Assembly (NCBI RefSeq): GCF_003721435.2
Contig: NZ_CP054585.1
Span: 186,001 to 250,000, forward strand
Origin: Halorubrum sp. CBA1229
Lineage (GTDB): Archaea; Halobacteriota; Halobacteria; Halobacteriales; Haloferacaceae
Length of the DNA stretch: 64,000 nucleotides
Reading direction: 5' to 3'
Shown: piece by piece, positions 26,726 through 64,000 of the stretch
Layout: each line of letters opens with the position of its first letter
How positions within the stretch are numbered: the first letter of the stretch is position 1
The notes under the pieces: generated by a model
What the model was told of the DNA's origin: nothing
The model's database searches: none
Seen by the model: the letters and a program-made list of their open reading frames with translations, nothing else
Made by a program: the position numbers and the translations under genes

Positions 26726-29700
26726 TTACGCGCTCGTCCCGTCCCGGGGCGTCGCGACGGTCGCCGTCGCGTCCGCGACAACCGGGCTCGCGGGCGTGAT
26801 CGCCGCGCTCTCGTTGCCTGAGCCGTCGCCATTAGAGCCGCTCCCGTCGACCGGACAGTCGGGGTCGCCGCTCGGGCAGTCGATGATTTCCTCTTCAAGC
26901 TCGACCGTCGCCGCCGCGTCGTCTTCGCCGACGACCTGGCCCTCGGTCACTTCGACCTGCCCGACGCGCTGGGTGGTGTACAGATCGTCGCCGGTCACCT
27001 GTTCGGTGCTGACGGTGTACGGCCCGGTCGCGCGGACGCTGGTGTTGGTGTAGCCGTTCTCGGGCCCGAACTCGTCGTACCCCGTCGTGGAGTACGGCAC
27101 CGTGAGTTCGAAGTTGCCGTTGGAGTCGGCCTCCGCGTACTGCGTGTACTCGAACGTCTGCCCGGAGGGCTTCTGCATCTCGACGGTCGCTTCAACTTCT
27201 TGGCCGGGCTGGGCGCCCGACCCCTCGATTGTCGCGCCGGGCACCCGTTCGAACGTCTTCACGTAGTCGTCTTGGAAGGCCGCGAGGAAGGATTCGCCGA
27301 GGATGTCCTCGACGCTCGTTCCCTCGGAGACGAGCTGTTGGAGCACGCGGACCTGCAGCGCGGAGGGCGACTGGCCCCGCGCCTGCGAGGCGTGGACGAG
27401 CCGGTGGTGTTCGAGGGCTGTGACGCGCTCGGAGGGGAGCGTCCCGACGCCGCCGACCTGGGCGCTGCCGTCCTCCGCGACGTACTCGCGGGCCGCGGTC
27501 ATGTTGTCGAACTGTTTGATCGTGGCTGTCGGGTCGGCCGGGAGCGTGTTCACCTCGACCTGCTCGCCGCTCTGCGTCTGGGCAGTCCGGGTCTCCCAGT
27601 CGACGACGACCGGTTCGGGCTCAACCGCGCTGCCGTAATGCTCGTACAGGCGGATCATCTGGCTCTCGTGGTAGCGCTGGGTGTTCACCTGCATCACCGT
27701 CTGGAACCCGCCCTGCTCGGTCTGCTGGTAGAGGACGCGGTTGAAATCGGAGCGCGTCTCGTTGCCCGAGTAGAAGGTGACAGGCGCGCCGAACTTGGAG
27801 TTCGGCGAGGCCATCTGCCAGTCGACCATCACGTAGCGGGTGTGTTCGCCCTCGGTGCTCTGGCTCGCGAGAACCTCGCGGGCCTGCTCCTCGCTCGGCG
27901 CGAGGAGGTAGTCGGCCGCTTCACCTGCATTTTGTTGGAACGGGTTCGCGTTCGGGATGCGCTCCGCGCGGGTGGTGATCCAGTGGCCGTAGTCCCACCA
28001 CGACTGCACGCCGTACGCGCCCTCCGGGTACTCAAAGTCGCCGTCGTCGGGGCGCTCGTAGGTGCCGTACAGCTCCATCGGGTTGTCCGCGCCCTCGAGT
28101 TCGCCGGGCGTGGGCGTCTCGTCGTTCATCCACTGGAGGCTGCCGTCCCACTGGGTGACGCCGCCGGGGCCGGTGTTCGCGCCGGCGGCCCAGACGGGGG
28201 TCGCCATCGCGACGAGCGGGACGATGAGGACGACGACGAGGGCGATCGCCGTCATCGCCTGCCACCCCTCGACGTCGCGGAGGTCGTCGAGCGAGCGGAG
28301 GCTGATCGCGTCGAGCGCGACCTGGAGGAAGTACGCCGCGCCGACCGCGACGATCACCGCGAGGTAGTAGTTGAAACGGGTCTGCGTGAACGCGGCGCTT
28401 CCGATGAACGCGGCCCAAACGACGAAGTACAGCTCCTCGGTATCGTACTCGACGAGGAACGTCGCGCCGACGAGGAAGGCGGCGGCGATGACGAGCCCGA
28501 CCACCTGCCAGCTCACGCCGACGACGCCGCCGACCGCGTCGTACAGTTGCGGGACCGCGTAGACGGAGCCGACGACCGCGAGCGCGGCCGGAATGTAGAG
28601 GGTGTGGGTGCTGTCGTCGGAGCGGTAGAGGGGGCGCGCGAGGACGTAGAGGATCGCGGCGAGCGCGAGGAAGAACGCGAAGCCGTACTGCGAGAGGACG
28701 AAGTCGGAGAAGGCGGCGTTCTGGAGCGGGGGTTGGCCCTCGCCGATCGTCTGGAACGTCGCACGGGCGCTGAACCCGACAAAGTTCAGAAGGTTACTGG
28801 TGAGCGTCGACCACAGCGAGGGAAGCGCCAGCCAGACGACGCCGGCGGACGCGAGGATGAGGCCGCCGACGGCCGGCGGGTACGTATTCACCTCGAGTTC
28901 GCGCGACTCCCACTGACGGGCGAGCCACGCAAGGAAGACGGCGCCGAGGGCGACTCCGAGCGGGAGCACGACCTGCGTGAGCGAGTAGCTGGTAACGCCG
29001 AAGGAGAAATTGTCGAGTGGAATCACCTGCATCAGCCCGGCGACGCCCATCGACACCGCGCCCGCGAACGCGATCGGTTCGGGACTCGTGTTGTGGTATA
29101 CATCGCTCGTGATCTTGATCGCGAGGAAGACGCCCGTGAACCCGACCATGAGAACGCCGGGCTGCCACGTCCACATGTACAGACCGAGTGCGACGCCCGC
29201 GGCAGCCGCGTACGCGGCCGGACGTTTGAGCGCGTCCCAGTCTTGATCGACGACGAGCTCCCAGACGGGCGCTTCGCGTTCGGCGACCGCGAAGGCGACG
29301 AGGAACGCGAGCACGGCAAGACTCTGGAAGAGGACTTCGGCCGCGCTGTGGTCCGGGAAGCCGACGAGACTGTAACTGAAGAAGGTGCCCGGGAAGAGAG
29401 CCAGGACGACCACGGCGGCGACCGCAGCGAAGCGGTCGACAAACCGGCGCGCGATGAAGTACGTCGGGATCGCAACGAGAGAGCCGGCGATTGGGGCCAT
29501 GATGAGCATGACCTCTTCGGTGCTGCCCATAATCGGGCGGGCGATCCAAACGCTGACTGCCATGATGTGATCCCATAGCGTTCCGAACTGGCCGGCCGAC
29601 CGGCCGACCGGGAAGCCGGTCCAGACGTCGAAGGGGAGGGTGTTCGGCCAGTTCTCGAGGAGGTAGCTCGTCTCGCGGAAGTGGTACCACGCGTCGTTAC

Positions 29701-29866
29701 CGCGGAAGTACACTTCGCCGTTCTGAATGAAATTCCCGTACGATCGGAGGCGGGTCCACAGCATGAAGGCCACGGCCACGAGGAGGAGCGGGACGTGGTA
29801 CCACCGTTGGAGGACATCGAGGGGCGATCCCCCGTCATCCCCGACGGCGTCGGTTTGCTCTCTCAT
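26726..29866 (-). CDS. aglB: Archaeal oligosaccharyltransferase AglB
   Basis: A 1046-residue STT3-family enzyme that transfers lipid-linked glycans to Asn in N-X-S/T sequons on the outer face of the membrane. The first 580 residues are about 13 membrane helices. An external-loop acidic motif with Asp58 is seen in FRGNDAWYHF, and a second in GFPDHSAAE. The catalytic/sequon-binding motif WWDYGH is at residues 623-628. The extracytoplasmic C-terminal half includes a long beta-rich domain, ending in a Ser/Gly-rich tail. A TATA-like TATATAAC at about 29910 on the minus strand would serve as promoter. It leads an operon with the DUF368 gene. Confidence 0.96.
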   Translation of the reverse strand: MREQTDAVGDDGGSPLDVLQRWYHVPLLLVAVAFMLWTRLRSYGNFIQNGEVYFRGNDAWYHFRETSYLLENWPNTLPFDVWTGFPVGRSAGQFGTLWDHIMAVSVWIARPIMGSTEEVMLIMAPIAGSLVAIPTYFIARRFVDRFAAVAAVVVLALFPGTFFSYSLVGFPDHSAAEVLFQSLAVLAFLVAFAVAEREAPVWELVVDQDWDALKRPAAYAAAAGVALGLYMWTWQPGVLMVGFTGVFLAIKITSDVYHNTSPEPIAFAGAVSMGVAGLMQVIPLDNFSFGVTSYSLTQVVLPLGVALGAVFLAWLARQWESRELEVNTYPPAVGGLILASAGVVWLALPSLWSTLTSNLLNFVGFSARATFQTIGEGQPPLQNAAFSDFVLSQYGFAFFLALAAILYVLARPLYRSDDSTHTLYIPAALAVVGSVYAVPQLYDAVGGVVGVSWQVVGLVIAAAFLVGATFLVEYDTEELYFVVWAAFIGSAAFTQTRFNYYLAVIVAVGAAYFLQVALDAISLRSLDDLRDVEGWQAMTAIALVVVLIVPLVAMATPVWAAGANTGPGGVTQWDGSLQWMNDETPTPGELEGADNPMELYGTYERPDDGDFEYPEGAYGVQSWWDYGHWITTRAERIPNANPFQQNAGEAADYLLAPSEEQAREVLASQSTEGEHTRYVMVDWQMASPNSKFGAPVTFYSGNETRSDFNRVLYQQTEQGGFQTVMQVNTQRYHESQMIRLYEHYGSAVEPEPVVVDWETRTAQTQSGEQVEVNTLPADPTATIKQFDNMTAAREYVAEDGSAQVGGVGTLPSERVTALEHHRLVHASQARGQSPSALQVRVLQQLVSEGTSVEDILGESFLAAFQDDYVKTFERVPGATIEGSGAQPGQEVEATVEMQKPSGQTFEYTQYAEADSNGNFELTVPYSTTGYDEFGPENGYTNTSVRATGPYTVSTEQVTGDDLYTTQRVGQVEVTEGQVVGEDDAAATVELEEEIIDCPSGDPDCPVDGSGSNGDGSGNESAAITPASPVVADATATVATPRDGTSA

Positions 29867-53824: not shown

Positions 53825-56531
53825 CAGCCGCGATGAGAGCGACGAGGGCGACGAGCGCGCCGAAGCCGGGCGTGCTGTCGTCCGTGCCGCTATCGTCACC
53901 AGTGTCGTCACCAGTGTCGTCACCAGTGTCGTCACCAGTGTCGTCACCAGTATCGTCACCGGTGTCGTCACCAGTGTCGTCGCCGGTGTCGTCACCAGTA
54001 TCCTCTTCGATGGTGAGCGTACCGGTCTCTTCGTCGTTGTCGGTGGCGATACCGTGTTCGTAGTCACCAGCGTCAAGGCCGGACGTGTCGGCAGTGAACT
54101 CAACGGTGGTGCTACCGCCGGCCTCCAGAGTGGTCTCCTGGCTGTCGAGCTCCTCGCCGTCAAGCGTGAGCGCGACATCCTGAGTACCCTCTGCGTTGCC
54201 GGTGTTCTCGATCGTCGCGGAGACGGTCACTGAGTCGCCAGCCGTCGCGGTGGCTTCCTGCGGGCTGAGGTCCGAGACATCGAAGCTCGCTCGCTCCTCA
54301 ACTGTTTCGACGACCGTCCCGTCAGAAGTGGCGTCGAAGGCAGCCTGGCGCACAGACGCCTCGAACGTGTCGTTCACTTCGGTTTCACTGAAGTCGAAGG
54401 TGGCCTCGAACGTGCCGTCGGGCGTCACGATGAGGTCCTCGTCGTTCTGGATGAAGCTTGTCGACGCGTCGTCGTCGCTGCGGACGCGCACGTCGATTTC
54501 CGTCCCGGGCGCAACGTTAGTCGTACCCGTGATGGACTGCTCTTCAGCGGCTTCGACTTGGATATCGTCCTCGTTGTCGAACTCGCCCTCGGCTGCTTCA
54601 GCCGTGAACGAGGCCGAGTTCTCGAGGAACGCATCCTCGAAGGCATCTTCGTCATCCTCTTCGAGAGTGTCCAGCAGCCGCGCGTCCTGCACGTTGATCT
54701 GGACCTCGTACTCGTCCTCATCCTCGATGTCCTCACTGACCTCATCGTTGAGTTCATCGGTGTTTGCGACGATGTAGTAGTTGTCTGTGTCCTCGTCGTA
54801 GACAACCGTGAAGATGTCCGAGAATGCAGTACTACTGATGTCCTCGTTCACGTCGATCGAGGTGGTCGGCTCGTTCGGACCGGGGTTCTGGAGTTCCAGA
54901 ACCATTTCGACCTTGTCATCGCTACCGTTGGCAAGGTCGGAGTAATCCGATTTGCTGTCGTAATCGTTCGTCTCCTGGAGAAGCGCGTAGAGCTGGGTCG
55001 TCCGATCGCCCTGGCCGAGGCTATCTCCATCGGCGCTCTCGAGGACGCCCTCCAGCCCACTCGCGGTGAGCTGGTGGACGAGCACGTCGCTGCGCGAGCC
55101 GTCGTCATCGACGGCAAGCGTGTCAGTCTCCGTGACGAGGTCGCCTTCGACGGCGCTGTTGATCAGTTCGACCGTGGCGCTCTCGTTTTCATCGCCGAGT
55201 TCCTCTGCGACGTCTTCCTCAACGCTCTCGCTGGTCCGCCAGAGCGCGAGGCTCGTCTCGGACCGCTCCTGAATTGAGAGCGAGGAGATCGTGTCCGGAT
55301 CCTCGATCGTGTCGATGAACCGCTGGCTGTCACTGCTGTTGGTGTACGGGCCGACCGCAAGGTCGTACGTACCCGTATCAAGGATGTCGGTCAGGTCCGA
55401 ATCATTCGCAAGTGACACTTCCGCGTCGTCATCGTCCGTGTAGACGATGTCGTCCGGACTCGCGTTGGCGTCTCCAGCTGCGTACGTGTTGAAGAGGACA
55501 ACCACTTCGTCGTCTTCCTCGTCCTCAATAGTCACGTTCGCCTGGTATCCGTCGTCCTCTTCGTTACCGATCACGAGTGTACCCTGATCGGTGTTGTCGA
55601 GTTGGACGGTGATCTCGGCGACGTCACCCTGCTGCTCAACGACCGAATCAGCGATGTCGAGTTCGCCTTCATCGGCCTCGGTGACGTTGATCGTATCGGT
55701 GTCCTCAGCAGTCGAGTCAACTACGCTCACTTCGAACTCGTACTCGTCCTGATCGATATCAGTGAAGTCAAGTTCGTGATCGCTGTCCTCAGCGTCAAAC
55801 AGCGTGATGATGTCATCATCTTCGTTGAGCGCGTAGTCTACATCCTGCTGACTAGAATTGTTAGCCCAAGCGGAGACTTCATAGCGGTCCCAGTCGCCGT
55901 CCTCGTCCGTGATGTTCTCTGTAACATCACGGTCGTAGGACGCGTTCCCGCTACCGGTGAAGATGTCTTCAAGATCGCCCGCGTCGAGGCCGTCTGCCTG
56001 GACGTTGACGACGTATTCGTTACGCGCGTCTGAATCGATCTCGTAATCGACAAGCGCGTCGTCACCAGAGTCGCCGACTTCGTCGTCGTCAAACTCGGTC
56101 GTCAGATCTTGGGCGACAACTTCGAACCGGATGTCGCCCTCACTAGTGTTGAACTCGTCACCGCTGCTCTGCGTGGTGATGACGTATTGGCCAGCCTCAC
56201 GGTTGGAAGTATCGATGACGACGTAGTCGCCATCCTCGGGGTCAAGTGCTGCTTCCAGACCACCGATCTGGGCTGGGCTCTCACTTGTGTCAAGCTCTCG
56301 GAGCTCGAGGTTTTCGTCAGTGTTACCCTGAACACTGCTTATGTCGAAGATGAGCTCTTGGCCCTGGTACGCAGTATCGCCGCTATCTGCTTCTTGGTCG
56401 TACTCTGCAGTCTGAATATTGGCTGCAGCTGCGGGAGCAGCTGCAAAGCCAACTGCGACCATGGAGATAACCATGACCGCTGCGAAGAAGACTGCATTAG
56501 CCTTCTTGCGTGTTGTATTGTCGTTTGTCAT
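53796..56531 (-). CDS. S-layer-type surface glycoprotein with PGF-CTERM anchor
   Basis: A 911-residue, extremely acidic secreted protein. Residues 1-37 are a signal peptide (KKANAVFFAAVMVISMVAVGFAAAPAAAA), the type found on haloarchaeal major surface glycoproteins. The body is beta-rich with many N-X-S/T sites for AglB (for example NASYD, NITDE, NNSSQ, NVTEA, NESAT). A CARDB-like domain precedes a linker of nine TGDD repeats where Haloferax has a Thr-rich, O-glycosylated one. The C-terminus TPGFGALVALVALIAAALLATRRNE (53799-53873) is a PGF-CTERM signal for archaeosortase A processing and lipid attachment. A strong promoter and long leader precede it. Confidence 0.93.
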   Translation of the reverse strand: MTNDNTTRKKANAVFFAAVMVISMVAVGFAAAPAAAANIQTAEYDQEADSGDTAYQGQELIFDISSVQGNTDENLELRELDTSESPAQIGGLEAALDPEDGDYVVIDTSNREAGQYVITTQSSGDEFNTSEGDIRFEVVAQDLTTEFDDDEVGDSGDDALVDYEIDSDARNEYVVNVQADGLDAGDLEDIFTGSGNASYDRDVTENITDEDGDWDRYEVSAWANNSSQQDVDYALNEDDDIITLFDAEDSDHELDFTDIDQDEYEFEVSVVDSTAEDTDTINVTEADEGELDIADSVVEQQGDVAEITVQLDNTDQGTLVIGNEEDDGYQANVTIEDEEDDEVVVLFNTYAAGDANASPDDIVYTDDDDAEVSLANDSDLTDILDTGTYDLAVGPYTNSSDSQRFIDTIEDPDTISSLSIQERSETSLALWRTSESVEEDVAEELGDENESATVELINSAVEGDLVTETDTLAVDDDGSRSDVLVHQLTASGLEGVLESADGDSLGQGDRTTQLYALLQETNDYDSKSDYSDLANGSDDKVEMVLELQNPGPNEPTTSIDVNEDISSTAFSDIFTVVYDEDTDNYYIVANTDELNDEVSEDIEDEDEYEVQINVQDARLLDTLEEDDEDAFEDAFLENSASFTAEAAEGEFDNEDDIQVEAAEEQSITGTTNVAPGTEIDVRVRSDDDASTSFIQNDEDLIVTPDGTFEATFDFSETEVNDTFEASVRQAAFDATSDGTVVETVEERASFDVSDLSPQEATATAGDSVTVSATIENTGNAEGTQDVALTLDGEELDSQETTLEAGGSTTVEFTADTSGLDAGDYEHGIATDNDEETGTLTIEEDTGDDTGDDTGDDTGDDTGDDTGDDTGDDTGDDTGDDSGTDDSTPGFGALVALVALIAAALLATRRNE
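53893..54003 (-). repeat. 12-bp tandem repeat encoding (TGDD)9
   Basis: About nine units of a 12-base repeat (TCGTCACCAGTG on the plus strand) with a few third-position changes (CACCGG, CGCCGG). They encode the cell-wall-spanning linker just before the PGF-CTERM signal. Copy number is likely to vary between strains. Confidence 0.9.
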
Positions 56532-56875: not shown

Positions 56876-59392
56876 CTATGCGGATGAGATATTTGTCTGA
56901 TTACCCTCAAGGACATGCTTGTCAGTTACGGAGACGGTCCGGTTACCAATCGTGTATTCACCAGGGTATGCAACCCGGATCACAGCGGTACCCTCTGTCA
57001 CCGTAGCATTCCGGGTATATTCATACGTCTCATCAGCGAGCGACATCGACGTACTGGCAGCCACGCGTTCACCGTTCGTGCCACTCACTCGTAAGGTCGC
57101 ACCGGGGACGACTGCAAAGGTCCGAACGCCGTCATCAGCTGCAAGCAGCTGATAGTGGCCAGTAGTGGCCGTCCCGTTGGCGCCGACACCCAGTCCCTCA
57201 TAGAGCGCCCCGTAACTGGAGTTTGTCGGTGGGGCATTCTCCCGATCAGCGATGACAACGTACCCGACGCGATCTTGGAAGCGATCGTACCACGCGTCTG
57301 GGTCTGGCGCGGCGAGGAATGGGTCATGAGTACTCTGTGCATAGCCGTAGCTTTGTGACTCACCGCTCACGAAGTAGTTGTACATCCGGTTGTCGCCCCA
57401 CCGGCTCAACACGAAGTTCTGTGGATACTCACGATCGACAGCGTCGGCATGTCCGTCGATCGTTTGTGCGGCCTCAAACTGTGCCCGGTCGTGGGTCATT
57501 TGTCCGACAAGCGGTGGAATGAGAATGAGATTAAATACGAGCACAAGGGCTACTGCGGCAACAAGAAGACCACGTAGGCGGGTTTCACTAGGGAGCTGGA
57601 CGGAGGTGATGCCATGGGCTGTCTCAGCGTCACCGATGCGGTCAAAGATAGAGCTGTCCTCACTGGTGCCTCCATCCCACTCCGAGTAGAAAGACCCCTC
57701 CGTGTCACCGGTCCTGCTTGCGGGGCCAAGCACCTCAACAGGCCGAGCGATATCGATCGCGGCGAGCAGGTATACCAGTCCGATCCCCGCAAATGGAGCA
57801 ATAAAAATCGCCAACTGGCCCGCGAACCGAACCTGGATCGTCGCGAGCAGCGTGTAGTACCACGCGAAACAGACGGGGACGAGCCACCCCGGTTCATATC
57901 GACGAGCCACAACCCACGTCGCAACCCCGAGGACGGCGATCCCGAAATAAAATCCGAGGCCGAGCTGGATGAGCGGGCCGAATACCACCGCGAAATCGGG
58001 ACTGAACAGCGAGGCTGTCTCAGTGGCGCCCTCACGGAAAAAGAGATCCTCCGCACGGGTCCGAAACCGCTCAATCTCGGCCGGGCGAAGCTGCCAATAC
58101 GCAAAGAGCCCACCTGCAGCGACAATCGCCTCGACAACGACGAAGCCCGACGCTGGAAGATCCGTCCGGCGCCACAGCTCGCCGGCGGCGACGACTGCGA
58201 CGGCGCCGCCAGCGACGAGCACGGGCGTGACTGCCGCAATCGATTCATGCCAACTGAGACCGAGATGCGCGGCGAGTGCGAGTCCGGCGCCGACTATGAG
58301 CCCCACAACCAGAGGCACGTTTCCAAAGGCTGGCGAACCGCCATGTCTGATGTCGAGTGCGACGCGAAAGCCGACCACAGCAGCAACCGGAATGAACGTG
58401 AGCGGCGATCCGCCCCACAGATGTGCGGAGGCTGCGACAGCAACTGCCAGACCAGCGGCAATACCCCATGATCGCGGGGCGCGTGCGTGGGCGCGTGCGG
58501 CGCTAGCCGGATCCGTCTCGCGGGCGCGACGGGCAACGTCTGTCGCAAGGGTAGTCAACGCAACAACGAGCAATCCGAGCCAGAGATACTGATGAGCCTG
58601 GTGGTCGAGAAAGCCGACCGTCGTGTACACCACGTTGGCGGGAGCAAGTCCGTAAAAGAGGACGGCGGCGAGTGCCACGCGAACGTCACTGGTGAGCAGG
58701 TAGGTAAGTCGGTAGACAACGTATCCGAGACAGACAGCCGTCACAATCGGCAGCCACGCGGCAACCAGTGGGGCGGCATCAACCCCACCGAGCAACACGG
58801 TCACCCACCAGTTGATGGCGTGCGAGAGCGGCCGCGTGCTCGCAGCCCCACCCATATCAGCGAACAGCGCGAAATCAAAGATACCGTCTGCACGAGCGGC
58901 CAGTTGCTCCTGCCAGTAGCGGAAAAAGTAGGTGTCGTTGGCGGGTGACACGACGTATCCATCCCGGAGCACAGCCGGCGCAGCGACAAGCCGTGCCGCA
59001 ACCACGGTGAGGAGTGCGCCGACTACCGCGAGACGCGTTTGAAAGTCGCCAGCGAGACGATCAGATAACATTTCAGACAGGGAGACCCCCTTCGCCGCTG
59101 TATTCTCAGCGGTCGCAGGATTGTTGCCTTCAGTCGATTCAGCCATATCGGCTCCATCGAGCGCAGCGCGAATCGCAGCCGGCCGCTGGAGGCGATACCC
59201 ATCATCGACAGCAGTCGCGAGATCACGCGAGACGAGCTCACCAAACTGGCCAGAATCAAGATTCGTCTCTGCAAATGTCCAGGGATTACCATCAGCATCG
59301 CGCTCAAGGAGTGACCCGAGCGCGTCTTCGGCCTCCGGGTGGTCCGCGAGATACTCGCGGGTGCGTGCGGTTGTCTCCTCGGGCGAGGGCAT
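56876..59392 (-). CDS. STT3-like membrane glycosyltransferase lacking the WWDYG motif
   Basis: An 838-residue protein. Residues 1-115 form a soluble, helical head with a winged-helix look (EDALGSLLERDADGNPWTFAETN). A GT-C membrane region of 11-13 helices follows, with the first-loop acidic motif at Asp153 (ANDTYFFRYW, compare GNDAWYHF in AglB) and FLDHQAHQYLW in place of the second DH motif. The outer domain has no WWDYG; at the corresponding place it reads SRWGDNRMYNYFVSG (W665-D667). It may use a different acceptor site or lack sequon recognition. The gene lies next to the S-layer gene. Confidence 0.8.
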   Translation of the reverse strand: MPSPEETTARTREYLADHPEAEDALGSLLERDADGNPWTFAETNLDSGQFGELVSRDLATAVDDGYRLQRPAAIRAALDGADMAESTEGNNPATAENTAAKGVSLSEMLSDRLAGDFQTRLAVVGALLTVVAARLVAAPAVLRDGYVVSPANDTYFFRYWQEQLAARADGIFDFALFADMGGAASTRPLSHAINWWVTVLLGGVDAAPLVAAWLPIVTAVCLGYVVYRLTYLLTSDVRVALAAVLFYGLAPANVVYTTVGFLDHQAHQYLWLGLLVVALTTLATDVARRARETDPASAARAHARAPRSWGIAAGLAVAVAASAHLWGGSPLTFIPVAAVVGFRVALDIRHGGSPAFGNVPLVVGLIVGAGLALAAHLGLSWHESIAAVTPVLVAGGAVAVVAAGELWRRTDLPASGFVVVEAIVAAGGLFAYWQLRPAEIERFRTRAEDLFFREGATETASLFSPDFAVVFGPLIQLGLGFYFGIAVLGVATWVVARRYEPGWLVPVCFAWYYTLLATIQVRFAGQLAIFIAPFAGIGLVYLLAAIDIARPVEVLGPASRTGDTEGSFYSEWDGGTSEDSSIFDRIGDAETAHGITSVQLPSETRLRGLLVAAVALVLVFNLILIPPLVGQMTHDRAQFEAAQTIDGHADAVDREYPQNFVLSRWGDNRMYNYFVSGESQSYGYAQSTHDPFLAAPDPDAWYDRFQDRVGYVVIADRENAPPTNSSYGALYEGLGVGANGTATTGHYQLLAADDGVRTFAVVPGATLRVSGTNGERVAASTSMSLADETYEYTRNATVTEGTAVIRVAYPGEYTIGNRTVSVTDKHVLEGNQTNISSA

Positions 59393-59543
59393 TAGCGTGC
59401 AACTGTGGCGGGCCCGGATTAGCGTTTTCGTTCGATACGATTCACTGACGAGGGCTGTCAGGTCAGCAACACCAACAGATGGTTCCCAGACCAGACGCCA
59501 ATAATAACATGAATCTTATGTCGTGACAGAGTCTCGTCGGTGT

Positions 59544-59990
59544 ATGCGCCGACTGCGGCTCCCGCTCATCCCGAATACAGTTCGATGGGGGGCTGTCCTT
59601 GTAGTTGTAGGAGTTATCCTGTACTATTCGATTCAAGCCGGGCCAGGCACACAGACATTTCAGACCGGACCGCTTGGCTTGTTCCCTTACTCAGACTGGC
59701 TCCATTTTCTCGCGTACGCCTGTCTTGCGGTCATGCTCGCGTACGCCCTTCATGACTCTCGCCTGCCGGAGTGGCAAGTGTTCGTCCTCGTGTTCGGCTG
59801 TGCGGTTGGCTACGGGGTGACGATTGAACTGTTGCAGTCGAGACTGCCGTCACGAACGTTTGCGTTCGGCGACATGGGCGTGAATGCAACCGGGGCGGCG
59901 GTGGCAGTTGTTTGCTGGCGGATTCTCATGCGGTACGTCCGATTCTATCGAGTGGCGCGAGCAACTGAAGTTGAATCGCCACTCAGCTAA
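59544..59990 (+). CDS. VanZ-like membrane protein
   Basis: A 148-residue protein with four membrane helices. The VanZ pattern is visible: WGAVLVVVGVILYYSIQAG, SDWLHFLAYACLAVMLAYAL with the conserved D-x-x-x-H/F arrangement, GYGVTIELLQSRLPSRTFAFGDMGVNATGAAVA (59810-59905) with the family's E-x-x-Q and D-x-x-x-N motif. A GTG seven codons upstream (59523) is an alternative start. It is divergent from the STT3-like gene. The biochemical role of VanZ-like proteins in archaea is unknown; a surface or membrane-lipid role is usual. Confidence 0.82.
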   Translation: MRRLRLPLIPNTVRWGAVLVVVGVILYYSIQAGPGTQTFQTGPLGLFPYSDWLHFLAYACLAVMLAYALHDSRLPEWQVFVLVFGCAVGYGVTIELLQSRLPSRTFAFGDMGVNATGAAVAVVCWRILMRYVRFYRVARATEVESPLS

Positions 59991-60160
59991 GCTCCCGCAG
60001 GTGACACAGTTGTCAGCTGCTCCTGCAGCCACACCACCTCGGTTACATGTCTCAGTGTCCCCTCTGGAACAGCCATTACCGCGATGTCCGTCGGTTTGTA
60101 AGACGATCTTAACGCAGATTCGACACTCCTTACAATCCCTCTCGGTTGTGTTGTGCGCCT

Positions 60161-63100
60161 ATGTCCAGCCGCAAGGCTGCCGCCATCTGTGGTTGCGCTC
60201 TAGTTATTTTTGCAGCGGTTACCCTCGCAGGAGGGATTGGCATCGGAGGCTCAGCCGCCGCCGTTAACGCCGAGTTTGAAGTGACGAACGCCAACCTTGC
60301 GGAGACGGAAATCGTAGAGGGAGAGGCCGCCACGATCACAGCAGACATCACGAACGACGGTACGGAGTCCGGAACGTTCACGGCCAAACTTCAGAGCGAT
60401 GCAGAGGGCGTCATCAACACCACAGACGTTGAGGTCGGAGCTGGTGAGACGCAGACCGTCGAGTTCACTCAACCGTTTGAGGCAGCAGGAACCTACGAAC
60501 TCAGCGTAAACGAGGTGGCTGCAGGAACACTCACCGTCGTCGAACCAGAGCCGGCAAACATCTCGGTCACAGATGCGGAGCTTTCACCAACGCGCATCAA
60601 TCCAGGCGAGACAGTAACAGTCACGGCGACCGTCGTAAACGACGGCGGCAGTGCAGGCGATTTTACTGCCGATCTCAACATTAACGGGATGACGAATGAG
60701 TCGGAGACAGGGACACTTGGTGCCGATGAGCAGACGACCGTTGAGTTCACGCCGAGCTTCGAGGAGGCGGGAACGTACGACATTACTGTCAACACTGAAT
60801 CGGCTGGAACCCTCACCGTTTCAGAACCTGCGGCGTTTGAGATCTCCAACGCACAGCTCGCTGAGAACACCATCTTGGCAGGCGACAACGCAGTCGTCTC
60901 CGCCGAGGTAACAAATATCGGTGATACCGAGGGGGAATTCACTGCCGAATTCCGCGCGACAGACGAGGATGAAAACACCCAGACGGTCGATACACACTCG
61001 GTGACGCTTGCAGGTGGCGACTCACAACAGGTCGAACTCCGTGGACCTGTCGAGCAGCCCGGCGAGTACGATATGCAGGTCAACCAAACGGATGCTGGGA
61101 CACTAACAGTCGAGTCGCCGGCCAATTTGACTGTCACAGATGCGGAACTCGAGGATGACGTGGTATCCGTGGATGATGAGGTCACCGTCAACGCCATCAT
61201 CAAGAACACCGGTGACCGTGAGGGGAGCCTCTCAGTTACGGTGGCGGCCGACGGAACGAGCAAGACAACCAAAGAAGTGACTCTTGGCCCCGGAGAGCAG
61301 AGTACGGAACAACTCACCTACATAGCGACTGCCGCCGGGGAGTCCGAAATCATGGTTAACGGTGTGACTGCCGGAACGCTCACTGTGGTCCGCCCGGCGA
61401 CGTTCCGAACGACAAATGCGGATCTCGAGCCAGACACAGTCCTTGAGGGCGAATCCACCGAGGTAACTGCAACCATCGTGAATGTTGGGACCGAGTCAGG
61501 AACACACACCGCAACGTTGGTCGCCAACAACGAGTCGGTCGCGAGCCAAGAGCTCGATATCGGTCCTGGCGGCAGCGAGACCGTCGTCTTCTCACAGGCG
61601 TTCGACACGGCAGACGAGTACGCGATCGCGGTGAACGACAACCCGGCTGGCACGCTCCGAGTCCTCGAACCCGCGAATGTCACGATCCGTGAGACGACCT
61701 TGTCGGCCGAGACGATTACCACCGGTGAGTCTGCCACAGTAACCGTCGAACTCGCAAACGATGGTGACGTGGACGGCGAGTTCACGACGGAACTTCGAGA
61801 CGACAACACCACACTCGAGAGTGATACCCGGACGGTCGGCTCGGATGCGAGCGAGACGGTTCGCTTCAATCGGACGTTCGAACGGGGAGAGTACAATCTC
61901 AGCGTTAACGACGATCCTGTTGGGACCCTTGCCGTCCTCGAACCCGCAGATGTGTCGCTTGGAGCGACAACAGTTGCTCCCGAATCAGTTGAGGTCAACG
62001 AGTCGGTCACACTCACTATCGAACTGCGGAACGACGGTGAAGCCACAGGCCAACGAGACGTCGATATCGCGCTTGGTGACGGCACTACTGTCCAGCGAAC
62101 CCCCGACGTGCCCGCAGGCGGAACGACACTGACGATCAGCCATGCATACAACGCCACCGGCGAGTACCCCGTCACGGTCGATGAGACGACCGTCGCGAAC
62201 GTCACCGTTGTCGACCCGCAAAATAACGGCGGCTCCGGTGGCGGCGGCGGATCGTCCGGGTCATCGGGGTCGTCAGGATCGGCTCCGACGGGCGGGCCAG
62301 AGCCAACCGTGATTCGGTCTGAGTCGAACGAGGGCGTCACGGTCAGCGTTGCCGGTGCGACTGGCGAGCGCTACGAGATCGCCGTCGACCTTGCCGGCCC
62401 GTCGGACTCCCAACCCGCCGTGTCAGTGTCCTCGGTCGGAGTGGATCCAGTTGGAGATCCTGCGGTGTACGAAACAACGATCGGCCGACCAACAGCCGAC
62501 CCAGCTGGTCGCGATCCCGTCCCCCATGGGGTGGCACTCGGGTACATGGGATTCAATTCGTCGCTTGGCGCAGCCGACACGAGTGCGGCGACACTCCAAT
62601 TTACGGTCGATGAGGAGACGATCCCGGATGGGCTGGATCAAACGGATATCGCCGTACTGCGGTACTCTGACGGCGAGTGGACAACGGCGACCGTCACCCA
62701 TACGATCGAGGATACCACCCACTCCGTGACGCTGCCACACGCTGCGCCCGTGGCTGTGGTCGCACTCGAACCGGGGCGAGTCGATATCGTCGAGAGTGGA
62801 GTGCCAGCCGATCGGGTGCGGGCGGGCTACGAGACGACGCTCCGAACGACCGTCGAAAATCCCGGTGACCGCTCGGCAACCCGAACACTCACCGTCAGCA
62901 TGAATGGTGAGGCGGTCACCGAACGAGAGGTGACACTCGGCCCCGGTGAGAACACGACCGTCGAGATCAGGTTCCAACCACCCGAAAGCGGACCAGTCTC
63001 ACTCGAGGGGAGCGAGGTCGGCGCGATCTCCCTGTTCGGTGACGACGGAGGCGACGCGACGTCACCGGGCGCCGAGACGGACGAGAGCGCGCCGGGGTTC

Positions 63101-63163
63101 GGTGTGATCGCCACGGTGCTTGCACTCGTTGTGACAGCACGTGTGGTCCGGCGTCGACGATAG
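60161..63163 (+). CDS. CARDB-repeat surface protein with PGF-pre-PGF domain and PGF-CTERM anchor
   Basis: A 1000-residue secreted protein. Residues 1-35 are a signal peptide (KAAAICGCALVIFAAVTLAGG). Seven Ig-like CARDB repeats of about 90-95 residues follow, each opening with a strand like FEVTNANLAETEIVEGE and closing with AGTLTVVEP. A Gly/Ser-rich linker (GGSGGGGGSSGSSGSSG) leads to a PGF-pre-PGF domain (VALGYMGFNSS, VLRYSDGEWTTATVT) and an eighth CARDB-like repeat. The end APGFGVIATVLALVV plus Arg tail is a PGF-CTERM signal. It probably forms a rod-like adhesin or envelope component and is a likely glycosylation target. Confidence 0.9.
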   Translation: MSSRKAAAICGCALVIFAAVTLAGGIGIGGSAAAVNAEFEVTNANLAETEIVEGEAATITADITNDGTESGTFTAKLQSDAEGVINTTDVEVGAGETQTVEFTQPFEAAGTYELSVNEVAAGTLTVVEPEPANISVTDAELSPTRINPGETVTVTATVVNDGGSAGDFTADLNINGMTNESETGTLGADEQTTVEFTPSFEEAGTYDITVNTESAGTLTVSEPAAFEISNAQLAENTILAGDNAVVSAEVTNIGDTEGEFTAEFRATDEDENTQTVDTHSVTLAGGDSQQVELRGPVEQPGEYDMQVNQTDAGTLTVESPANLTVTDAELEDDVVSVDDEVTVNAIIKNTGDREGSLSVTVAADGTSKTTKEVTLGPGEQSTEQLTYIATAAGESEIMVNGVTAGTLTVVRPATFRTTNADLEPDTVLEGESTEVTATIVNVGTESGTHTATLVANNESVASQELDIGPGGSETVVFSQAFDTADEYAIAVNDNPAGTLRVLEPANVTIRETTLSAETITTGESATVTVELANDGDVDGEFTTELRDDNTTLESDTRTVGSDASETVRFNRTFERGEYNLSVNDDPVGTLAVLEPADVSLGATTVAPESVEVNESVTLTIELRNDGEATGQRDVDIALGDGTTVQRTPDVPAGGTTLTISHAYNATGEYPVTVDETTVANVTVVDPQNNGGSGGGGGSSGSSGSSGSAPTGGPEPTVIRSESNEGVTVSVAGATGERYEIAVDLAGPSDSQPAVSVSSVGVDPVGDPAVYETTIGRPTADPAGRDPVPHGVALGYMGFNSSLGAADTSAATLQFTVDEETIPDGLDQTDIAVLRYSDGEWTTATVTHTIEDTTHSVTLPHAAPVAVVALEPGRVDIVESGVPADRVRAGYETTLRTTVENPGDRSATRTLTVSMNGEAVTEREVTLGPGENTTVEIRFQPPESGPVSLEGSEVGAISLFGDDGGDATSPGAETDESAPGFGVIATVLALVVTARVVRRRR

Positions 63164-63235: not shown

Positions 63236-64000
63236 TCACACGACGACTGAGACGATCCCACCGCCGACGACTGCGAGCCCGCCAAGCCCGAAACAGACGG
63301 CCCAGAACGGGACACGTTCGACGACGCGCATGAGCGCGTCAATCGTGAGATAGCCGACGAGAGCACTGACGCCCAGTGCAACGGCCGCGGCTGTGGGACG
63401 AATGCCGGGGAGCCCACCTGCACTCAGCAGCGTGAGGACTGCAGCGCCGAGACTCGCCGGAATAGACAACAGAAACGAGAGTCTGAATGCGGCCGGTGGT
63501 TCGTAGCTGCGGAACAGAAAGACACTCGTGGTCATTCCCGATCGCGAGATGCCGGGCAAAATCGCGAGCCCCTGAACGGCGCCGACGAGAACTGAATCCG
63601 TGAGTGTTGGGGCTGTATGGCCACCCATCGAGACGGATTCGGAGGCGAGCTGGAGAACCCCAGTTGCGATCAGTAAGAGACCGATCACGGCGATGAACAC
63701 GCCACCTGTGAGTTGCCCGGCCAAATCGACGGCAAAGATGTAGAGCGGGATGCCGACGATGCCCGTCATGAACGACGCGATCACGATATACGACGCGATC
63801 GCGTTGTCGCCCTCGTAGGCAGCACGGGGGCGCCAGCCCGGCACCGCCGCGAGTGCGGTCTGGAGTTCGTGTCGGTAGTACGTCGCCGCCGACAAGGTCG
63901 TGCCGACCTGCAAAAAGAGCGCGAGCTGGATCGCAACCGCGGGGTCGGTCCCAACCAGCGTCAGGACCAACGACAGATTCCCCTGACTGGAGACGGGAAG
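63236..64000 (-). CDS. uppP: UppP/BacA-type polyprenyl-diphosphate phosphatase (5' end outside window)
   Basis: The last 255 codons of a multi-helix membrane phosphatase; the frame is open to the window edge with LPVSSQGNLSLVLTL, the first active-site motif region (family LPxSSxGH). The second motif LPGISRSGMTTSVFL, with the catalytic Ser/Arg, is near 63540. UppP removes the terminal phosphate of polyprenyl diphosphate to regenerate the lipid carrier. After AglB-type transfer from dolichyl-diphosphate carriers such a step is needed. It ends 72 bases after the CARDB gene, convergently. Confidence 0.9.
   Translation of the reverse strand, partial: LPVSSQGNLSLVLTLVGTDPAVAIQLALFLQVGTTLSAATYYRHELQTALAAVPGWRPRAAYEGDNAIASYIVIASFMTGIVGIPLYIFAVDLAGQLTGGVFIAVIGLLLIATGVLQLASESVSMGGHTAPTLTDSVLVGAVQGLAILPGISRSGMTTSVFLFRSYEPPAAFRLSFLLSIPASLGAAVLTLLSAGGLPGIRPTAAAVALGVSALVGYLTIDALMRVVERVPFWAVCFGLGGLAVVGGGIVSVVV

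Follow-up and report, generated by a model that had tools for sequence, protein, structure and literature searches.

In a 64,000-nucleotide stretch of Halorubrum sp. CBA1229 DNA (contig NZ_CP054585.1, positions 186,001 to 250,000, forward strand; hereafter the window), the gene that we call X probably encodes a second oligosaccharyltransferase, as judged from sequence comparisons and a structural model. The enzyme would move a glycan linked to dolichyl pyrophosphate (Dol-PP) to an N-terminal Asn of the S-layer glycoprotein that lies outside any sequon (N-X-S/T). The open reading frame (ORF) of X is located upstream of the S-layer gene, in tandem on the same strand and with a gap of 344 bp. This agrees with an earlier interpretation made from the letters of the window (the sequence-only reading), which had placed X next to the S-layer gene.

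56876..59392, minus strand: X, second STT3/AglB-like GT-C transferase, proposed sequon-independent oligosaccharyltransferase; intact ORF, 838 aa
53796..56531, minus strand: S-layer glycoprotein gene, proposed X substrate; surface-glycoprotein signal peptide, BGTF surface domain, PGF-CTERM
56418..56420, minus strand: S-layer Asn38 codon (Asn-2 after the inferred cleavage AAA/ANIQTAEYD), proposed glycosylation site; non-sequon N-I-Q

In the proposed mechanism, X would be an AglB paralog acting on the outside of the membrane. The glycan would be begun by a phosphoglycosyl transferase (PGT) as a sugar linked to polyprenol through pyrophosphate (Dol-PP-sugar), and the Dol-PP-glycan would be completed and then flipped outward. 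X would bind it by an AglB-like metal site (Asp153, Asp263-His264 and Glu458). It would then transfer the glycan to an Asn amide at one of the mature positions 1-4, typically position 2, in the product of the neighbouring S-layer gene. Since the pocket for Ser/Thr at +2, WWDYG, is missing from X, no sequon would be needed; the site would be chosen by its closeness to the N-terminus. The released Dol-PP would be recycled by UppP (BacA), and in Halobacterium X would be the enzyme that modifies Asn-2 of the S-layer protein with the repeating-unit glycan. The reaction of X, its donor and acceptor, the signal cleavage site and the glycan are what we infer in this scheme; its observed basis comprises the family of X, the conserved catalytic residues, the modelled fold, the neighbouring genes, the joint occurrence with PGT and UppP and the N-terminal Asn of S-layer proteins in genomes with X.

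Family membership and fold of X

Sequence profiles and the predicted structure indicate that X is almost certainly a GT-C enzyme of the oligosaccharyltransferase type. The protein scored 88 bits against TIGR04154 (archaeosortase-associated AglB), below the cut-off of 450, and its C-terminus contained a weak AglB_L1 domain that scored slightly under the cut-off. PF02516 was not among the profile matches listed for X of the window; a Halobacterium member of the X family exceeded the cut-off of this profile (29.4 vs 24.5). The sole PF02516 match over the cut-off in the window genome (G000) was a canonical AglB:

26726..29866, minus strand: canonical AglB of the same genome; TIGR04154 940 bits; GND, DHS, TIGE and WWDYG motifs

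X is evidently not the AglB ortholog, since that place is held by the canonical AglB with which it coexists. When a profile of 40 X homologs was compared with one of 20 haloarchaeal AglB proteins using hhalign, the two matched with a probability of ~100% (E 6e-39) over 663 columns at ~20% identity. A sequence search of the Protein Data Bank (PDB) with the single X protein as query gave no match; the kinship with AglB was seen by profile and fold comparison. Full-length X homologs within the genus (relatives named Halorubrum) were 59-72% identical. In one genome, the X region (G021:C3:880845-883303) was broken into two overlapping ORFs, reflecting a frameshift, a sequencing error or a pseudogene.

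The AlphaFold2 model of X (predicted local distance difference test [pLDDT] 87, predicted template modelling score [pTM] 0.79) had 13 long helices in membrane order, counted manually from the DSSP string, and an outer alpha/beta globular domain. Its best Foldseek matches in the PDB were four Archaeoglobus AglB structures (E 9e-18 to 2e-15). Eukaryotic STT3, DPY19 (2e-7), PglB (3e-6), ArnT (1e-4) and PMT (0.03) followed as weaker matches, the last two by a wide margin. The AglB-like GT-C membrane part postulated in the sequence-only reading was thus recovered by profile and by model, and the structure prediction that it had called for gave a GT-C fold with an outer domain. A PMT/ArnT-type identity of X was considered and rejected in view of the E values of these folds relative to that of AglB; the PMT profile gave weak matches in just 2 of 40 X members.

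The soluble N-terminal head noted from the sequence was also predicted to be folded, and is followed by a disordered linker (residues 81-113).

59153..59392, minus strand: N-terminal soluble head of X, residues 1-80; predicted folded, pLDDT 87-96

The head carries a conserved D46-S-G-x-F-G-E motif. From its position ahead of the first membrane helix, we place it tentatively in the cytoplasm, where it might bind a partner. The same head recurs across the order in otherwise different proteins of ~300-376 aa (G053, G081, G082, G068, G042 and G009).

Active site and acceptor pocket

In Archaeoglobus AglB (AfAglB), the metal ligands are Asp47 (in a Gly-Asn-Asp motif), Asp161 and His163; Glu360 of the TIXE motif acts through water, and the Ser/Thr pocket is formed by WWDYG together with DK/MI (PMC8342417). 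Conservation of the corresponding residues was scored over 41 X sequences.

58934..58936, minus strand: X Asp153, first external loop; equivalent of AfAglB Asp47, a metal ligand (PMC8342417)
58601..58606, minus strand: X Asp263-His264, second DXD motif; equivalent of AfAglB Asp161-His162 (PMC8342417)
58019..58021, minus strand: X Glu458, invariant; equivalent of the TIXE glutamate, AfAglB Glu360 (PMC8342417)
57377..57400, minus strand: W665-G-D-N-R669-M-Y-N672 in the place of WWDYG; R669 and N672 invariant in the X family

Asn152 and Asp153 were invariant (41/41) and aligned to the Gly-Asn-Asp motif of AglB, as the sequence-only reading had proposed for the Asp153 loop. Position 263 was Asp in 38 of the 41 sequences and Glu in 3, and His264 was present in all. 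The third residue of the Asp-His-x motif varied in X (Q, H, R or T) and is Ser in the AglB of the window (DHS). Glu458 aligned to the glutamate of the AglB TIGE motif, of which the T-I part was not conserved in X. WWDYG was found in none of the 41 members; this place was mostly occupied by W-G-x-x-R-x-x-N, and R669, N672, G677 and Y682 were invariant. The replacement of WWDYG by SRWGDNRMYNYF in X was therefore correctly noticed and holds, as a loss of WWDYG, for the whole family. Our reading of these alignments is that X would have kept catalysis and lost the sequon pocket.

Distribution of X and its link to a pyrophosphate-linked donor

Profile matches to X (threshold E 1e-20) were found in 175 of 292 Halobacteriales genomes. 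Three genomes with weak matches (G103, G117 and G152; E ~1e-22 to 1e-26) were dropped from the counts of genomes with X (X+), leaving 172. The AglB core domain was present in 289 of the 292 genomes, indicating that X is additional to AglB. Two draft genomes of the window genus had no AglB-type match (G001 for TIGR04154; G002 for TIGR04154 and PF22627), owing to incompleteness or real loss.

Clustering of the neighbours of 40 X loci revealed a protein of ~490 aa near X in 25 loci, an S-layer gene in 18 and UppP in 10. The ~490-aa protein is a polytopic PGT (PF02397), a class that makes polyprenyl-pyrophosphate-linked sugars. PGT was present in 165/172 X+ genomes vs 34/120 genomes without X (X-) (Fisher p 7e-37), and UppP in 146/172 vs 30/120 (p 2e-25). 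The pattern recurred within the window genus (PGT in 13/13 X+ vs 2/11 X- genomes; UppP in 13/13 vs 1/11). The window genome encodes a single PGT, at 28 kb from X; the block around it also contains a nucleotidyltransferase, an epimerase and a UDP-sugar dehydrogenase. By established knowledge of these two enzymes, their co-occurrence and linkage with X indirectly make a Dol-PP-linked glycan likely as its donor. The donor carrier reported for haloarchaeal AglB is dolichyl phosphate (Dol-P), unlike that proposed for X. In control searches, PGT and UppP were absent from Haloferax volcanii, in which X was not searched directly. We also considered X as the enzyme of the low-salt Asn-498 glycan of Hfx. 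volcanii; this is unlikely, given the monophosphate carrier of that glycan and the lack of PGT and UppP matches there.

N-terminal Asn of S-layer proteins as acceptor

To compare acceptors, we scored S-layer-type proteins of X+ and X- genomes for an Asn within the first four mature residues (early Asn). In the window genus, an early Asn was found in 24/30 X+ vs 1/25 X- proteins (p 8e-9); an additional X- case with Asn-3 (L303) lies outside this count. The other genera, an independent set, gave 33/46 X+ vs 7/42 X- (p 2e-7), and the pooled values were 59/77 vs 10/68 (p 3e-14). When genus means were used, the early-Asn fraction was 0.72 for 24 X+ genera and 0.12 for 20 X- genera (p 1.5e-5). Six of the seven genera with both X states favoured X+, with one tie. 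The association persisted when the proteins were collapsed to 36 similarity clusters (p 7e-4). A second signal-peptide parser led to the same conclusion as the first, which had overlooked cases.

The early Asn lay in N-X-S/T in 13/59 proteins, vs 71/327 for the other Asn of the same segments, i.e. at the background rate. In genomes with several S-layer-type proteins, the X-linked one could be set against the others: VNIS (X-linked) vs DASG (distant) in G021, and FNDE (X-linked) vs VDDP and EDGG (distant) in G035. Two S-layer-type genes near X in G003 differed from each other (AANGH and APAGG). These comparisons suggest that the N-terminal Asn of the S-layer protein is quite likely the acceptor of X. 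The sequence-only reading had proposed a glycosyltransferase with another acceptor, such as Thr residues of the TGDD linker or a lipid. A GT-C transferase with an altered acceptor site was supported, whereas these two acceptors were not; the genomic data favour an acceptor Asn at the N-terminus of the S-layer protein, and a polyprenyl-pyrophosphate donor.

X and the Asn-2 glycan of Halobacterium

Halobacterium was the source of the first glycoprotein known outside eukaryotes. Asn-2 of its S-layer protein carries a repeating glycan that is derived from Dol-PP and is bacitracin-sensitive; this glycan stays when Ser-4 is replaced by Val, Leu or Asn, the Asn-2 enzyme has been without a known gene, and a second oligosaccharyltransferase was not found in the Halobacterium genome (PMC2952790; PMC3871713; PMC6591318). 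The repeating unit is a sulfated pentasaccharide. We identified one genus of our set (g30) as Halobacterium via the S-layer gene csg. X was present in 4/5 genomes of this genus with a salinarum-type csg vs 0/8 without one, and PGT lay within a few kb of X in three Halobacterium genomes. In G114, X is located 3.3 kb from csg and is accompanied by glmS, two GlmU-like genes and PGT, all within 15 kb. The mature csg product of this genome begins AAA/ANADQ (cleavage inferred), with Asn-2 outside a sequon. It is fairly likely that X is the enzyme of Asn-2 glycosylation in Halobacterium salinarum.

Alternative explanations

Several points weigh against the scheme proposed here. The acceptor evidence is wholly comparative, and the mature N-termini of the S-layer proteins were predicted, with signal cleavage placed by the AxA rule. 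An early Asn was missing in 18/77 S-layer-type proteins of X+ genomes, some of which were not the X-linked gene, and was present in 10/68 of X- genomes. On the donor side, 7 X+ genomes had no PGT match and 26 had no UppP match, and 34 PGT+ genomes lacked X; PGT therefore also serves other pathways. H. salinarum itself lies outside the genome set, in which the nearest genome was G114, with a csg 88% identical to the query sequence used. The main alternative is joint inheritance of X and the S-layer type in one cassette, with no substrate relation between them. Collapsing the data by genus and similarity cluster weakens this alternative and does not remove it.

Such cassette inheritance would account for the S-layer link if X were a ligase or polymerase that passes Dol-PP-linked polysaccharide to a lipid, to another surface protein or to a growing polysaccharide. 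PGT and UppP belong to exopolysaccharide and capsule pathways too, PGT occurs in the 34 of 120 X- genomes mentioned above, and exchange of surface polysaccharides may go along with that of the S-layer type. However, a ligase or polymerase does not predict the early S-layer Asn, which was seen in ~24 genera, within mixed genera and after collapsing similar proteins, and the fold of X is that of Asn-modifying oligosaccharyltransferases, not that of known ligases. We consider such a role unlikely. Very unlikely is a role in the O-glycosylation of Thr/Ser in the S-layer protein (TGDD or a Thr-rich linker), although X adjoins the S-layer gene and has lost the sequon pocket, and although the enzymes of the O-linked Glc-Gal disaccharides on Thr-rich regions are not known (PMC4245038). 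O-glycosylation of the Thr-rich region of the S-layer protein has been reported in Hfx. volcanii (PMC4245038), where AglB is described as the sole STT3 homolog (PMC3871713); Thr-rich O-glycosylation is thus independent of X. Moreover, a disaccharide assembled from Dol-P or nucleotide sugars would not be expected to involve a Dol-PP/PGT/UppP pathway, and the N-terminal Asn would be left unexplained.

Two further explanations would keep X closer to AglB. As an ordinary AglB paralog, X would transfer Dol-P-linked glycans to normal sequons and be specialised in glycan type alone. The fold and catalytic residues of X fit this explanation, and Archaeoglobus is reported to have three AglB paralogs (PMC3703281); but WWDYG, the Ser/Thr pocket (PMC8342417), is in no X member, X is linked to PGT and UppP, enzymes of a pyrophosphate carrier, and the X-associated Asn is in a sequon at the background rate (13/59 vs 71/327). 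We regard an ordinary paralog as highly improbable. The departure from WWDYG and the presence of X and AglB genes in the same genomes might instead suit a catalytically dead or regulatory partner of AglB, a regulator having been one option of the sequence-only reading. Conservation of the catalytic residues throughout the homologs, or almost so, speaks against this option: Asp153, His264 and Glu458 were invariant and Asp/Glu263 was kept over 41 divergent sequences. AglB is moreover near-universal, whereas the distribution of X is patchy and follows that of PGT and UppP. A dead or regulatory partner is hardly credible. The sequon-independent transfer of a Dol-PP-linked glycan to the S-layer N-terminus remains the explanation that we prefer.

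Other features of the window

59523..59990, plus strand: VanZ-like membrane protein on the other side of X; recurrent X neighbour
60146..63163, plus strand: CARDB-repeat PGF-CTERM surface protein; inferred mature start SAAA/VNAEF; possible second X substrate
63236..63970, minus strand: BacA/UppP polyprenyl-pyrophosphate phosphatase, proposed carrier recycling; reading frame runs beyond the window end

A VanZ-like small membrane protein lies beside X in several species. CARDB-repeat PGF-CTERM proteins near X have an early Asn at about mature position 2 (VNAEF in the window, VNAEF in L031:12029-15337 and GNADI in L062:4560-7847), and on this sequence pattern the protein is a possible second substrate of X.

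Next to AglB, positions 31000-52000 form an island of low guanine-plus-cytosine content (44-57% vs ~70% upstream). It carries genes for sulfatases, glycosyltransferases, an FkbM methyltransferase, a NeuB-type sialic-acid-like synthase fusion, a cytidylyltransferase, a flippase and a transposase, and is probably the glycan cluster of AglB.

In G029, a member of the genus, a 71-aa C-terminal relic of X (C1:231649-231861) lies 2.5 kb from the S-layer gene at 234407. The S-layer protein of this genome has the mature start VGGGED, which has no early Asn, and UppP was not found in the genome. G029 looks like a natural loss of the X pathway.

Significance

Our estimate leans, somewhat better than even, toward a second N-glycosylation system in more than half of Halobacteriales species, which would have its own class of oligosaccharyltransferase, use a pyrophosphate-linked glycan, read an N-terminal Asn by its position and explain the Asn-2 glycan of Halobacterium. 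In this estimate, the class would have been overlooked because its members have no WWDYG and mostly score under profile cut-offs. In the literature searched, we found nothing on a second archaeal oligosaccharyltransferase or on a PGT tied to the haloarchaeal S-layer; most subscription journals lay outside that search, and a prior mention is possible. The X family offers a concrete candidate gene for the decades-old Asn-2 puzzle and a testable acceptor rule for many cultivable species. If the proposal is true, an oligosaccharyltransferase freed of the N-X-S/T rule would help in understanding how sequons are recognised and would have uses in glycoengineering, and studies of S-layer glycosylation resting on aglB alone would have overlooked a common second pathway.

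Comparison with known systems

The closest known relative is AglB (STT3/AglB/PglB, GT66; TIGR04154). It shares with X the predicted GT-C fold, 13 membrane helices, the outer globular domain, the first-loop Asp, the Asp-His motif, the Glu of external loop 5 and, weakly, the AglB_L1 domain. X differs in that it lacks WWDYG, has an extra folded N-terminal head and is only ~20% identical over the aligned columns; it is present besides AglB, not instead of it, and is linked to PGT and UppP, not to the AglB cluster. DPY19 C-mannosyltransferase, ArnT and PMT have a GT-C membrane fold like that of X, but are weaker structural matches.

Bacterial PglB (GT66), a GT-C transferase of one subunit, takes its glycan from polyprenyl pyrophosphate and is partnered by a phosphoglycosyl transferase, and in these respects it resembles the system proposed for X. 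Unlike X, PglB carries WWDYG and needs a sequon, and its fold match to X (E 3e-6) is far weaker than that of AglB (9e-18). The Asn-2 system of Halobacterium is likewise similar to the proposed X system in its pyrophosphate carrier (predicted for X), in an acceptor Asn at mature position 2 and in having no need of Ser/Thr. The N-acetyl-sugar genes (glmS and GlmU-like) beside X and csg in G114 fit the Asn-2 system. This likeness is a comparative link, in which the X side is known from sequences.

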